From positions 2,044-66,043 of the forward strand of contig JADFZT010000008.1 of assembly GCA_015232395.1 (NCBI GenBank): a stretch of DNA of 64,000 nt. Reading direction: 5' to 3'. Shown piece by piece: positions 1-39,191 of this stretch. The notes under the pieces were generated by a model. That model was not told where the DNA came from. It saw only the letters and a program-made list of their open reading frames with translations, and did not search any database. A program made the translations under genes and the position numbers. This stretch comes from Magnetococcales bacterium (GTDB taxonomy: Bacteria > Pseudomonadota > Magnetococcia > Magnetococcales > JADFZT01). Position 1 is the stretch's first letter; every line of letters begins with the position of its first letter.

Positions 1-62
1 CGTTTCGGTTACCGAGTAGGCGCTTTTTCACCAAATATCCAGGACAGGACGCCAAGTTCGGC

Positions 63-2861
63 GTGGACCATCAAAATGCCCCTGAACGGGGTTGGCGCTT
101 CCTGGCTCTTCTGCTTCCTCTGATCAGCCTTTTCTCCCTCTCTACCCTACCCGCCTCTGCACGTGCCGACGGGGTGATCATCAACGAAATCATGGCAGCC
201 AACGCTGCTAGCCACCTGGATGAAACTTTCGGCAATTTTTCTGACTGGTTTGAACTCTACAACACCGACATCCACTCTCTGGATCTCAGCGGCTACACCC
301 TGACCGACGATCTCACCAAGCCTGCCAAATGGCCCATTCCCGAAGGAATTGTCATTGAGGGAGGTAGCTCCCTGGTTTTTTGGGCTGACGATGCCAACCA
401 GGATAATCACACCAACTTTCAGCTGGAACAGAGCGGTGAAACCCTGGGGCTTTTCACCCCAACAGGGGAGCTGGTCGATAGCGTCACTTTCGGCCCCCAG
501 GTCACCGATGTCTCCTATGGCCGCATCTTGGGAGGGAGCGATGTATGGCTCTATTATGCCGTTCCCACCCCCAACGATATCAACAACACCAACGGCCTAT
601 TCGAGGCCACACAGGCGCCTCCCCCCACATTTTCCCTCTCCGGGGGCATGCTGCAATCCCCCCAGGAGCTGCGGATTTTTACTGAAACCACTGGCGGGAT
701 CATCCGCTTTACCACGGACGGAACTCTGCCGACTCCCAATGATCTGGACGCCTCTATTCTCTACGACACCCCCCTCACCATTAACACCTCCACCATTATC
801 CGGGCCCGGGTCTTCTCAGAGGAGTTCCTCCCCAGTCGAACCGTCACCCGCTCCTTCCTGTTTGCCGATGGTTTTGATCTGCCCATCATCTCTCTGGTGA
901 CCAATCCCGGCTATTTATGGACCGATGAGATGGGGATCTATGTTTTCGGTCCATCGACACCTCCCGACAGCTCTGGAGATGGCAGTGGGGAAACAACAGC
1001 GGATGAGGGAGAGGATGAGGAAGAGGAAGAGGATACACTGGGGGACATGATCTGCCGGGATATGCCGTTCAATTATAATAAAAAATGGGAACGACCCGCG
1101 CATCTTGAGTTTTACCAGAACAATCAACTGGAATTTAAACTCGATGCAGGCATCAAAATCTTCGGAGGGTGCTCCCGCTCTTTTCCACAAAAATCCCTGG
1201 CCGTTAAAGTTCGGGAAAAATATAGCGGTTCGGCCACCCTGGACTACCCGCTTTTCCTCAACAACACCAATCAATACACCTCTTTTGTCTTGCGCAACTC
1301 TGGCGGGGACTGGTTTTCCACCATGTTTCGTGATGCCATGATGCAGAGCCTGCTCGATGGCCGGATGGATATGGATAAACAGGCCTACCGACCCGCCGTA
1401 CTCTTTTTGAATGGTGAATTTTGGGGCATCCACAATATTCGTGAAAAACTCGATGAAAACTATCTGGCGACGCACCACGGAATCGATCCGGAAAATGTCG
1501 ATATTCTCGAAGGGGACGGTCTCGCCATTGCGGGAGAAACAGACCACTATGAAGAGATGGTGGAAAAACTCTCCCAGATGGATCTGGCGGAACCGGAATC
1601 CTTTGTCTATGCCGACAGCGTGGTGGACCTGGATGAGTTTACCAACTATCTCATGGCCCAGATCTACTATTCCAATGGGGATTGGCCGGATCACAACATC
1701 AAGTTTTGGCGCTCCCGGGAGGAGGGTGAAAAGTGGCGTTGGCTACTCTACGATACCGACACCGGTTTTGGCCTGATGGACAGCGAAAGCTACAGCGTCG
1801 ATACTCTGCAGGCAGCCACCTCTACTGAGGATGACAGCAATATCGAATGGTCCACCTTCCTGGCACGTAAGCTTCTGGAAAATAGTTCCTTCAAAGATCA
1901 CTTTCGCCAAGCCTTTGCCATGCACCTTAACCAAACATTCGACATTGATCGGGTGATTGGGGTGATTGATGAATTCCAGTTGAATCTGCAACGGGACATG
2001 GTGGCCCATCTGGACAAGTGGACGGCCATTTCCACCTCTGAAGATCCCATCGTTGACTGGATGGATAACGTCGAGGTGATGCGTGAGTTTGCCCGCAACC
2101 GCCCGGAATATATGTGGACCCATATTTCGGATCGTTTTTCCGAGGATGGGAAGATTGACGTCACCCTTGATACCTCCGGTGAGGGACGTGGCAGGCTGTT
2201 GGTGGAAGATATTGAGGTCATCGACCTACCCTTCACCGGCACATTTTTTGCGGATGTCACCCTGGAAGTTGCCGCTATTCCCGAAGAGGGTTCCCAGTTT
2301 GTGGGATGGGAGGAGCGGGAGGAGGAGGATAATCCTCTGCGCCTGGGCTATTCCGAAAACCTCACTCTCACCGCTCAGTTTGATGAGTTGGCCCCCATCG
2401 TCATTCGGGAAATCCACTACAATCCCTCCTCAAGCCAGGGGGATGATTCTGATTATGAGTTTATCGAACTCATCAACATCGGCCTGACCCCCATTGATCT
2501 GACCGATTATGCCTTCAGCGAAGGGATCGAGATGACTTTTCCCGATGGCAGCGTGATCGACACCCAGGAGATCATTGTGGTGGCTCGCAACGCCGAGACC
2601 TATCAGGATCAGGGGTATCAGGTTTTTGAATGGGAGAAAGGCAAGCTTTCGAATTCGGGGGAGACCCTGACGCTGATCAATGCTGAAGGCAATGAGGTGG
2701 ACCAGGTGACCTATTCCGATACACTACCTTGGACACCCAGTGCGGATGGCGGCGGGGGGAGCTTGGCCCTCATCAACCCGGCCCTGGATAACGCCGCCCC
2801 TGAAAACTGGTGGGTAGGTCCCACCTTTGGTGGCACCCCAGGCTCCGATTCCGTTCTCTAA
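63..2861 (+). CDS. Secreted CotH-kinase-fold protein with lamin-tail domains
   Basis: A 932-residue exported protein. The N-terminus has a hydrophobic signal segment ending in an ASARA-DG site. A lamin-tail (LTD) domain follows at about 36-150, then a chitobiase C-terminal-like beta domain at about 185-265, the CotH region at about 270-650 and a second LTD domain at about 780-900. CotH signatures seen are IREKLDENY and the acidic LLYDTDTGFG motif. CotH proteins are secreted atypical protein kinases or structural spore-coat-like proteins; the substrate here is unknown. An unusual Asp/Glu-rich low-complexity stretch lies near residues 300-325, just inside the CotH region. The start is a GTG with a weak ribosome site, and the frame stays open to the window edge, so a longer N-terminus is possible. 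The VTC gene begins 9 bp after the stop, and this pairing is recurrent in bacteria. Confidence 0.85.
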   Translation: MDHQNAPERGWRFLALLLPLISLFSLSTLPASARADGVIINEIMAANAASHLDETFGNFSDWFELYNTDIHSLDLSGYTLTDDLTKPAKWPIPEGIVIEGGSSLVFWADDANQDNHTNFQLEQSGETLGLFTPTGELVDSVTFGPQVTDVSYGRILGGSDVWLYYAVPTPNDINNTNGLFEATQAPPPTFSLSGGMLQSPQELRIFTETTGGIIRFTTDGTLPTPNDLDASILYDTPLTINTSTIIRARVFSEEFLPSRTVTRSFLFADGFDLPIISLVTNPGYLWTDEMGIYVFGPSTPPDSSGDGSGETTADEGEDEEEEEDTLGDMICRDMPFNYNKKWERPAHLEFYQNNQLEFKLDAGIKIFGGCSRSFPQKSLAVKVREKYSGSATLDYPLFLNNTNQYTSFVLRNSGGDWFSTMFRDAMMQSLLDGRMDMDKQAYRPAVLFLNGEFWGIHNIREKLDENYLATHHGIDPENVDILEGDGLAIAGETDHYEEMVEKLSQMDLAEPESFVYADSVVDLDEFTNYLMAQIYYSNGDWPDHNIKFWRSREEGEKWRWLLYDTDTGFGLMDSESYSVDTLQAATSTEDDSNIEWSTFLARKLLENSSFKDHFRQAFAMHLNQTFDIDRVIGVIDEFQLNLQRDMVAHLDKWTAISTSEDPIVDWMDNVEVMREFARNRPEYMWTHISDRFSEDGKIDVTLDTSGEGRGRLLVEDIEVIDLPFTGTFFADVTLEVAAIPEEGSQFVGWEEREEEDNPLRLGYSENLTLTAQFDELAPIVIREIHYNPSSSQGDDSDYEFIELINIGLTPIDLTDYAFSEGIEMTFPDGSVIDTQEIIVVARNAETYQDQGYQVFEWEKGKLSNSGETLTLINAEGNEVDQVTYSDTLPWTPSADGGGGSLALINPALDNAAPENWWVGPTFGGTPGSDSVL

Positions 2862-2870
2862 GCTTGATCG

Positions 2871-3629
2871 ATGGCCGCCACCCACCATCAGCCCCACGGA
2901 TTGCCCACCTCCCGCCATGAGTGCAAATATTTTTTGCCTGAGCGGCAGGTGGCAGATCTGCGCCAGTTCATGCAACCCTTCATGAAGCTCGACTCCCATG
3001 GGATGGACCGGGAGGGGGGGCGCTATCCCATTGTCAGTCTTTATCTGGACACCCCAGACTTCAAGCTCCACCATCAGACGTTACAGGGGGTGAAAAATCG
3101 CTTCAAGCTGCGGGTGCGAACCTACTCGGATGATCCGGGGGGGCCGGTTTTTTTTGAAATCAAGCGGCGGGTGGATAAAATCATCATCAAGCACCGGGCC
3201 AAGGTTTCCCACCAGGAGGCCCAAGCCCTGCTCTCTGGTTCCGGAGCCCCTTTCATAGGCTCGACTGATAAGTTTATGGAGCTTTCGTTGCGTCTGAAAG
3301 CATGCCCCGTCGTTCGGGTGCGTTATGATCGGGAGGCGTATGTTTCCAGGAGTGGGGATTCGGTGCGGATAACCATCGACAGCCATCTGACCCACCAAAA
3401 AACCTTGGATCCTCTCCTTGCCATGGGGGGAGAAGGGTGGCAGCCTACCCCGGTTGAAGGCCACATTCTGGAGATCAAATTTACCGAACGCTATCCTGCC
3501 TGGGTGCAGGAGTTGATTCGGGCGTTTGAGTTGCAGCGGATTTCGATTCCCAAATATGTGTTGTCGGTGAAGGAGGCCTTTGGCTCTATGCCGAGGTTGG
3601 ATCCTCTCGGACAGCGGCTGCAGACTTGA
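2871..3629 (+). CDS. VTC-domain polyphosphate polymerase-like protein
   Basis: A 252-residue cytosolic protein of the VTC superfamily, the catalytic fold of yeast Vtc4 that makes polyphosphate from ATP. The family's tunnel-lining signatures are visible: HECKYFL near the N-terminus, a YLDTPDF strand, KLRVRTY with two basic residues, FEIKRR, and a C-terminal LEIKF followed by IPKYVLS. Length matches single-domain bacterial VTC proteins without SPX or membrane segments. It lies between CotH and DUF4956 genes, a known neighbourhood. The stop TGA overlaps the ATG of the first of three mini-ORFs that lead into the DUF4956 gene. Polyphosphate synthesis is inferred from the fold; bacterial members of this clade are poorly characterised. 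Confidence 0.85.
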   Translation: MAATHHQPHGLPTSRHECKYFLPERQVADLRQFMQPFMKLDSHGMDREGGRYPIVSLYLDTPDFKLHHQTLQGVKNRFKLRVRTYSDDPGGPVFFEIKRRVDKIIIKHRAKVSHQEAQALLSGSGAPFIGSTDKFMELSLRLKACPVVRVRYDREAYVSRSGDSVRITIDSHLTHQKTLDPLLAMGGEGWQPTPVEGHILEIKFTERYPAWVQELIRAFELQRISIPKYVLSVKEAFGSMPRLDPLGQRLQT

Positions 3630-3685
3630 TGGCCCGGTTGGAGGCTTGATGGACCGTTTGGAAAATTGATGGACTGCTTGGAGAG
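3626..3685 (+). repeat. Three 20-bp tandem units forming a TGATG mini-ORF relay
   Basis: Three consecutive 20-bp units (starting 3626, 3646 and 3666) share the pattern TTGATGG-n6-TTGGA. Each contains an ATG (3629, 3649, 3669), five further codons and a TGA whose last base is the first base of the next ATG. The encoded peptides are MARLEA, MDRLEN and MDCLES. The chain begins at the VTC stop codon (3627-3629) and ends at the ATG of the DUF4956 gene (3689). Purine-rich TTGGAG or TTGGAA lies inside each unit upstream of the next ATG and could serve as a ribosome site. The end of the VTC gene and the start of the DUF4956 gene resemble the unit, so it probably arose by duplication of a TGATG junction. 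Confidence 0.8.
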
Positions 3686-3688
3686 TTG

Positions 3689-4375
3689 ATGGACCTGTTG
3701 CTGGCCATTTTGAACAAACCGATTGGATCGACCCCCATGGAGGTGCTGGAGGCGACGGCGCTGGCCTTTCTCTTTGCTTTTGTTTTGGGGCAAGGTGTCG
3801 CCTGGGCCTATACCATCACCCATAGCGGCCTCTCCTATTCCCGCACATTTACCCAATCCCTGGTGCTGCTGGCGATGGTAGTGGCCATGGTGATGCGGAT
3901 CATTGGGGACAATCTGGTGGTGGCTTTTGGTCTGTTGGGGGCGCTCGCCATCGTGCGCTTTCGCAACGTGCTGAAGGATACCCGGGATACGATTTTTGTC
4001 TTTCTCTCCATTGTCATCGGCATGGGGGTGGGGACGGGAAAATATCTCACCACCATGCTGGGGGCGGTGGCGATAGTGCTAGTGCTTTTTTACCTTCACT
4101 TTACCGGGTTTGGCACCTTGGATCGTTATGACGGACATGTGAGTTTTCTGCTCAGTGGCGGGAAGGGTGAAGGGGATTTTTCTCAAGTGATGCAGCGGTT
4201 TTGCCGAAGTTTCAAGTGTATCTCCCTGCGTCGCAGCCAGGATGCCGCCAACTATCTGTTTCAGGTCAGACTGCGGGATCCGGGTCGAAGTGCGGAATTT
4301 TTGGAGGCGTTGCGGCAGATATCCGGCACCAGCGATGTCGCTTTGGTAGAGCGTGAGGAGTTGACGGAAACATGA
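3689..4375 (+). CDS. DUF4956 family membrane protein
   Basis: A 228-residue inner-membrane protein with about four to five hydrophobic segments in its first 140 residues, including AFLFAFVLGQGVAWAY, LVLLAMVVAMVMRIIG, LVVAFGLLGALAIVRF and a long IVIGMGVGTGKY to FYLHF region. A soluble C-terminal domain of about 85 residues follows. The conserved VRFRN segment after the third helix is typical of DUF4956. Function is unknown, but the family recurs beside VTC and CotH genes. The ATG at 3689 overlaps the stop of the third mini-ORF; a TTG one codon earlier is possible but unlikely. Its own 3' end overlaps the next gene by ATGA, so all four genes of this group look translationally coupled. Confidence 0.8.
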   Translation: MDLLLAILNKPIGSTPMEVLEATALAFLFAFVLGQGVAWAYTITHSGLSYSRTFTQSLVLLAMVVAMVMRIIGDNLVVAFGLLGALAIVRFRNVLKDTRDTIFVFLSIVIGMGVGTGKYLTTMLGAVAIVLVLFYLHFTGFGTLDRYDGHVSFLLSGGKGEGDFSQVMQRFCRSFKCISLRRSQDAANYLFQVRLRDPGRSAEFLEALRQISGTSDVALVEREELTET

Positions 4376-5523
4376 GCCCGAAAGCCCAAAATCGTCCCAT
4401 ACGCAGACCCTTCAAAAGGGTGCTGGCGGATCTTGCCGGGGTGGGCTATCTGGCTGTGTGGCTGGTGGCGGTGGGGGCTATCGGCTTGATTTTGCGGGAT
4501 CGGCTGCAGGTGGCGGAATATACCGGCCTGGCTCAGGGCAGTCGCTATCACGTCTCTGCCACGATCCCGGGCCGGATCGATCAACTCCATGTGGAGCTTT
4601 ACGACCGTGTGTTTGCCGGGCAGCTGGTGGCCACCCTGGAAGATGATCAGGTGATGGCCAAACTGAATGTCGCCAAAGCCAAACTGGATCTCTCCCGGAC
4701 CGAGCTGAAAAAAGCCCATTATGATGTGGTGGATGGGGTGGGTGCCTGGCAGGGGGAGATGCGTCGTTTTGCCATGGATGAAGCCCAGTGGCGCTTGGAG
4801 GCCCTGGCGATGCAGGTGGCTCTGGAAACCGATCGGGTGGAGCTGGAAAAGGTCCATCGGGTGGTGGAGAGGCTGCGTTCCCGCCATGTGGAGGGGTATG
4901 CCACGGATGCGGAGTTGGATGCGGCTGTGTTGGAAGAAAAACGCCTGCGAAAACAGATAGCCGGCCACGAAAAGCAGCTCCGTCAAACCCAGGCCAACCG
5001 GCGTGATGCGGGGGATCGGCTGAAGGGTTTTGTGGGTAATCTTTCCATGGATGGGGATCCGACCACGATTGTCATGGCTCCGCTACAGGTCGCCATTGAG
5101 GTGGAAGAGGCGCGGCTGGAGGAGATTCGGGTGGAGCGACGCAAGCTGATTTTGCGGGCACCGGTAGCGGGCAAGGTAAGCCAGGTGTTGGGGAGGGCTG
5201 GGCAATCTTTGCGGGTGGGTGAATCGGTGGTGTTGATTGACCAGGGGGTGGCCTCTGAGGTGGTGGCGTATCTGCCCGAGTCCCAGAGCCGCAACGCCCA
5301 GGTTTCCCAACCGGTTCAGATCAGCCGCAGCAGCGATCCCACAACGGTAGCCGACTCCCTGGTCTTGCGGATTTCCCCCACCATCGAACCGATCCCCGAA
5401 CGCCTGTGGCCCACTCCCGACCGCCCCATCTTCGGCAGGCCCATCGTCCTCGCCCCCAGCGCTACCCTCCCCCTCCTCCCGGGTGAAAAGGTTCAGGTGC
5501 GCCTTCTCTCTACCACCCAATAG
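4372..5523 (+). CDS. HlyD-family membrane-fusion (periplasmic adaptor) protein
   Basis: A 383-residue protein with one N-terminal transmembrane helix (about 22-42), a first half-lipoyl segment around HVSATIPGRIDQLHV, a long charged helical hairpin at about 95-220, and a second half-lipoyl segment around LRAPVAGKVSQVLGRAGQSLRVGE. This is the adaptor layout of HlyD/EmrA/YibH proteins, which bridge inner-membrane transporters and outer-membrane channels. No transporter or TolC gene is adjacent, so the partner may be the DUF4956 protein or encoded elsewhere. The ATG overlaps the DUF4956 stop (ATGA), which supports one transcript. Confidence 0.85.
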   Translation: MSPKAQNRPIRRPFKRVLADLAGVGYLAVWLVAVGAIGLILRDRLQVAEYTGLAQGSRYHVSATIPGRIDQLHVELYDRVFAGQLVATLEDDQVMAKLNVAKAKLDLSRTELKKAHYDVVDGVGAWQGEMRRFAMDEAQWRLEALAMQVALETDRVELEKVHRVVERLRSRHVEGYATDAELDAAVLEEKRLRKQIAGHEKQLRQTQANRRDAGDRLKGFVGNLSMDGDPTTIVMAPLQVAIEVEEARLEEIRVERRKLILRAPVAGKVSQVLGRAGQSLRVGESVVLIDQGVASEVVAYLPESQSRNAQVSQPVQISRSSDPTTVADSLVLRISPTIEPIPERLWPTPDRPIFGRPIVLAPSATLPLLPGEKVQVRLLSTTQ

Positions 5524-38911: not shown

Positions 38912-39072
38912 TTCACGCCAATCACTCCCCGGAAGGAAAAATCAATCATGGGTAAAACACCCTGAAAACATCGAACAAGGAGGCAAATTCCCCCTGTCAT
39001 TTCCATCCCCTGGAGTCTGAAGCCCAGCAAAAAGAGACCATTGGCGCACTCACACACCTGTGCCTTGTGAGG

Positions 39073-39191
39073 ATCACCCACCCCAGGTTCCTTGGGAGGA
39101 TCACCCACCCCGGGTTCCTTGGGAGGATCACCCACCCCGGGTTCCTTGGACAATCACCCACCCCGGATCCTTGGGGGCGATCACCCACCCT
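39073..39191. repeat. Five-copy 27-bp tandem repeat downstream of hybrid kinase
   Basis: The core ATCACCCACCC recurs at 39073, 39100, 39127, 39153 and 39180, with surrounding GGTTCCTTGGGAGG; spacing is 27, 27, 26 and 27 bp. It directly follows the kinase stop at 39203 on the - strand. A 27-bp unit could encode nine residues (RNPGWVILP or KEPGVGDPP on the - strand), but the 26-bp step breaks every frame, so a coding role is unlikely. It may be a minisatellite or a transcript 3' structure. Confidence 0.8.

Follow-up and report, generated by a model that had tools for sequence, protein, structure and literature searches.

At the junction between a VTC-domain gene and a DUF4956 gene, in the 64,000-nt stretch of DNA analysed here (the window), three 20-bp units form a chain of short ORFs linked by TGATG joints. 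We consider it probable that this array arose by a slippage-type duplication and was tolerated because the TGATG and the SD-like GGA(G) carried in the copies let translational coupling survive. The case for this reading comes from the chimeric make-up of the units, from the arithmetic of the 20-bp period and from a comparable chain in another genome, where there is no evident gene to serve.

Architecture and rarity of the array

The TGATG joints lie at 3627, 3647, 3667 and 3687, the first containing the VTC stop (TGA 3627-3629), and the 59 nt between this stop and the DUF4956 start are filled by three mini-ORFs with ATGs at 3629, 3649 and 3669 (Table 1). In each of them five codons separate the ATG from a TGA, and the A of this TGA doubles as the A of the next ATG, so that the last hop leads to the DUF4956 ATG at 3689—a start backed by the closest relative (locus L008), whose N-terminus has the same length. 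All four joints are start-stop overlaps of the kind characteristic of translational coupling, with both reading frames on the same strand and sharing bases (-1). The description in the earlier note, three 20-bp units of ATG, five codons and TGA linked by TGATG, is thereby confirmed in sequence and coordinates, and TRF independently detected a repeat at 3622-3700 with a period of 20, 4.0 copies, 77% matches and a score of 95. Elsewhere in the window, TRF also reported a 27-bp tandem array (39063-39190, 4.8 copies, 88% matches).

TGATG is a frequent motif (250 sites in the window, both strands counted); the four-TGATG chain is nevertheless the sole chain longer than two in these 64 kb. Of 200 second-order Markov resamplings of the window, one contained a chain of at least four, a rarity argument that is valid only for independent TGATG sites; after a tandem duplication, the chain arises in about a quarter of cases. 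Across the 4.94-Mb genome the array is unique among arrays of its type: one other period-20 TGATG triple exists, on contig C36, but its units are dissimilar. The unit signature occurs three times in the array and gave a single match elsewhere in the genome, in an ORF region on contig C81, and a dispersed repeat was rejected on this basis. A phage origin was likewise rejected, no match being found.

The host cluster spans window positions 63-5523 in the order CotH/LTD, VTC, DUF4956 and HlyD. CotH, polyphosphate polymerase (VTC) and DUF4956 genes constitute a known accessory gene group, and the trio accompanies Pel polysaccharide clusters of Gram-positive bacteria (PMC7112168). The same three genes make up the host cluster studied here and also occur together in L008 and on a Planococcus plasmid (L046); the junctions of other members differ in having no units where checked.

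Table 1. Genes and repeat units around the VTC-DUF4956 junction (window coordinates)
Feature	Position	Strand	Evidence or remark
CotH kinase/LTD-domain protein gene	3..2861	+	Upstream, same cluster; Pfam PF08757, E 3e-44
VTC-domain (polyphosphate polymerase-like) gene, 252 aa, C-terminus RLQT-TGA	2871..3629	+	Pfam PF09359, E 2.4e-36; ORF call
u0: VTC C-terminal codons, putative diverged partial unit copy	3609..3628	+	12/20 to unit consensus
u1: mini-ORF MARLEA, TGA ending 3649; GGAGG for next ATG	3629..3648	+	Weak SD upstream, -3.1 kcal/mol
u2: mini-ORF MDRLEN, TGA ending 3669	3649..3668	+	Strong SD upstream, -9.3 kcal/mol
u3: mini-ORF MDCLES, TGA ending 3689	3669..3688	+	Weak SD upstream, -3.3 kcal/mol
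u4: DUF4956 gene start, putative original downstream half of the junction (ATGGACCTGTTG...)	3689..3704	+	Unit alignment
DUF4956 membrane protein gene, 228 aa	3689..4375	+	Pfam PF16316, E 7.2e-9
HlyD-like adaptor gene	4372..5523	+	-4 overlap (ATGA) with DUF4956, strong SD

Probable origin by duplication across the gene junction

The origin of the units was examined by aligning five consecutive 20-mers from 3609 onwards (u0-u4). The units proved to be chimeric: their 5' portion of about 7 nt (ATGGACC) equals the DUF4956 start in u4, and their 3' portion of about 13 nt resembles the VTC tail GGCTGCAGACTTG in u0. Of the 11 free positions on the VTC side (columns 8-18), 8 agree with a unit; on the DUF4956 side the agreement is 7 of 9 (columns 4-12). 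Among the window's 246 other TGATG sites, the first level is equalled at 1 and the second at none. Pairwise identity among the units themselves is 15-16/20 (75-80%), i.e., 4-5 differences per pair. Composed as they are of VTC tail and DUF4956 start, the units point to a tandem expansion of 20 bp across an ancestral TGATG junction. The same origin explains the MxxLE pattern (MARLEA, MDRLEN, MDCLES): the pattern is present, as the earlier note had observed, because the units copy the VTC tail RLQT-stop, which reappears, preceded by the DUF4956 ATG, as RLEA, RLEN and CLES-stop—a derivation which that note overlooked. Also overlooked were the 20 nt before the first ATG and the first nucleotides of DUF4956, which in the alignment appear to be diverged partial unit copies. 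As no more than 12 of the 20 positions of u0 agree with the consensus of the units, the boundary of the duplication is uncertain.

We infer that VTC and DUF4956 once met at a single junction. A 20-bp segment across their original TGATG overlap, comprising about 13 nt of the VTC tail and 7 nt of the DUF4956 start, would be the ancestor of the units, and slippage or unequal exchange would have generated three extra tandem copies that later diverged. No relative with fewer units, representing the ancestral state, was found in the collections searched.

A period rule that yields a relay-shaped chain without design

When a segment containing TGATG is duplicated at period p, reading from the first ATG arrives in frame at the second TGATG only if p+1 is divisible by 3. 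Duplications were simulated at the TGATG sites present in the window, and the link stayed intact in 79.6% of cases at p = 2 mod 3 and in none otherwise (25% overall). The period of 20 satisfies this condition (2 mod 3), and no in-frame stop interrupts the unit, so every copy runs from ATG through five codons to TGATG; the relay geometry thus follows from the period, and the chain requires no design. It is true, as remarked earlier, that neighbouring mini-ORFs differ in frame, but this is no oddity: the chain works because three does not divide the period, and any period of 2 mod 3 would suffice. Among the ideas put forward in the earlier note, a slippage product tolerated since restarts work is therefore the best supported, given chimeric units and a period that produces the relay automatically.

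A survey of period-20 TGATG triples in 399 Pseudomonadota genomes provided a natural control. In genome G286 (L025:1501-1545), copies of the last codons of a gene (IKIIE-stop giving MIGIIE-stop and MIGMID-stop) make up a chain of two mini-ORFs; it stands immediately 5' of a strong hairpin and has no evident downstream gene. With no gene to serve, this chain indicates that relay-shaped chains arise where no relay is useful. Period-20 TGATG arrays stood at about 11 places in the same 399 genomes against 2 for period 19, numbers too small to establish a general excess, and several of the places are chance triples or 5-/10-bp repeats. We also observed, in the same order as the present genome, an array of a 20-bp unit (TGATGACACTCTGTTCTCAA; L030, G011:C1:2246984) that overlaps the 3' end of an opposite-strand ORF and whose forward mini-ORF chain has no evident gene to serve.

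Proposed mode of translation across the array

The SD of a coupled gene is beneficial for coupling, though not absolutely required. Coupling works best when the spacing lies between -4 and +3 nt, and several systems largely lose it past 30-40 nt (PMC12548453). Ribosomes finishing VTC may thus reach DUF4956 by termination-reinitiation hops over 59 nt, a distance at which coupling would otherwise be weakened: each TGATG joint would offer the terminating ribosome a start at a distance of -1, and the copied GGA(G) would give the ATGs, that of DUF4956 included, SD-like sites of varying strength. Calculated SD energies before 3629, 3649, 3669 and 3689 are -3.1, -9.3, -3.3 and -6.7 kcal/mol, respectively, the last belonging to a moderate SD of DUF4956's own (GGAGAG), supplied by u3. 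No strong RNA fold was found over the region, where folding is weaker than in most shuffles (z +1.2). The SD in front of DUF4956 makes direct initiation at 3689 plausible as well, and part of DUF4956 translation is probably direct. We infer both the hopping of ribosomes through the mini-ORFs and its tolerance; the effect of the array on the VTC:DUF4956 ratio would be modest at most.

Alternative readings of the array

The array could instead be a functional metering relay, in which each TGATG hop loses ribosomes, DUF4956 is set well below VTC and selection preserves the chain. The chain is indeed intact at all four joints although the units of each pair differ at 4-5 of 20 positions, an SD-like GGA is retained in every unit, and delivery of ribosomes by coupled short ORFs has precedent (PMC12548453; PMC13255528). 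However, in simulated neutral drift from identical copies the chain remained intact in 17%, 9% and 5% of runs at 6, 8 and 10 substitutions, and the minimum number of substitutions among u1-u3, counted by hand from column changes, is 8. Survival of all three hops through about 8 substitutions is therefore at most a weak hint of constraint, and, with some 9% neutral retention at the observed divergence, selection on the chain is not demonstrated. The mini-peptides vary (A/D, R/C, A/N/S) with no sign of constraint, the -6.7 kcal/mol SD of DUF4956 makes dependence on the hops unnecessary, and the array is absent from every relative found. We regard such metering as rather unlikely.

The evidence from relatives was sought at other VTC-DUF4956 junctions, the comparison of unit number across them having been suggested beforehand. 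These junctions are a -4 overlap (ATGA) in L008, a +10 nt spacing on the Planococcus plasmid and a +18 nt spacing in L007, and none of the three has repeat units. Tight junctions of this sort, free of units, speak for the array being a tolerated duplication. Within the order, DUF4956 is rare (3 of 47 other genomes), and none of the three genomes that bear it has VTC directly before DUF4956; a relay conserved in the order was rejected accordingly. The gene is also scarce in the phylum sample, with 7 of 399 genomes, and no close relative of this VTC-DUF4956 gene pair was found in the collections searched. The genome that carries the array holds a second, diverged DUF4956 gene (G000:C14:14102-14698), with a VTC gene further off and a different gene order.

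Another reading, also unlikely, treats the array as a multiplied ribosome-binding site: the SD before DUF4956 (GGAGG/GGAGAG) would be the useful product, translation would start directly at 3689, and the mini-ORFs would be by-products. The present VTC tail offers no good SD (-3.1 kcal/mol), against -9.3 before 3649 and -6.7 before 3689, and the weak folding of the region is favourable to it. Yet the strongest SD serves mini-ORF 2 instead of DUF4956, and a better SD may have been present in the ancestral VTC tail, prior to its divergence. A role of the array as a special regulator of DUF4956 is unproven, and we deem it distinctly unlikely that selection maintains the array as a fixed attenuator acting on the VTC:DUF4956 ratio, with three six-codon ORFs in alternating frames forming a multi-hop relay in which DUF4956 output drops at each hop.

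The phase-variable counter proposed in the earlier note, in which copy number tunes DUF4956, fares poorly: the TRF-detected tandem repeat does sit at a translation start, but its units are only 15-16/20 identical, in contrast to the near-identical units of hypermutable repeats, and slippage is no longer favoured, which makes this reading highly improbable. Chance similarity without duplication is scarcely credible, for common as TGATG is (250 sites), the TRF score of 95 and a unit signature found three times here and once elsewhere in the genome speak against it.

Relation to known systems and implications

Read as a tolerated duplication, the array would be a minor variant of a known phenomenon, of which the MIRU repeats in mycobacterial operon junctions appear to be the closest known kind; an example from Mycobacterium tuberculosis lies in senX3-regX3 (Supply et al. 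1997, as relayed in PMC12548453 and PMC4213456). At such junctions a small ORF is overlap-coupled to the next gene, and this is taken to be why the MIRUs are tolerated (PMC12548453). Both cases combine a short tandem repeat at an operon junction with a small, stop-start-coupled ORF that overlaps a neighbouring start or stop, and in both the insertion is proposed to cost little expression. The senX3-regX3 units measure 77 and 53 bp (PMC4213456), lengths that are 2 mod 3, as is 20. MIRUs, however, are dispersed over many loci, apparently mobile and joined by -4 overlaps, whereas the present array has 20-bp units and -1 (TGATG) overlaps, is built from its two flanking genes and is local, its unit pattern recurring in the genome only in the one C81 match; it resembles a MIRU in its working without being one. 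Taken singly, the joints match the sites of ordinary TGATG/ATGA termination-reinitiation coupling (PMC6728339, PMC12548453): all four are standard -1 overlaps, and a clear SD precedes two of them. What differs is the presence of three extra six-codon ORFs between the two genes. The array also resembles bicistronic designs and nfORF boosters (PMC13255528), where a short nonsense ORF with an internal SD by its stop directly precedes the target start; those are engineered and use a single short ORF, whereas here three occur naturally in series after a full gene.

This natural three-hop construct would be a convenient test piece for the cost of each reinitiation event. More broadly, the period arithmetic supplies a rule for the insertions that an overlapping operon junction can absorb: TGATG-bearing duplications of 2 mod 3 regenerate a coupled mini-ORF and others do not, a rule that the MIRU lengths follow as well.
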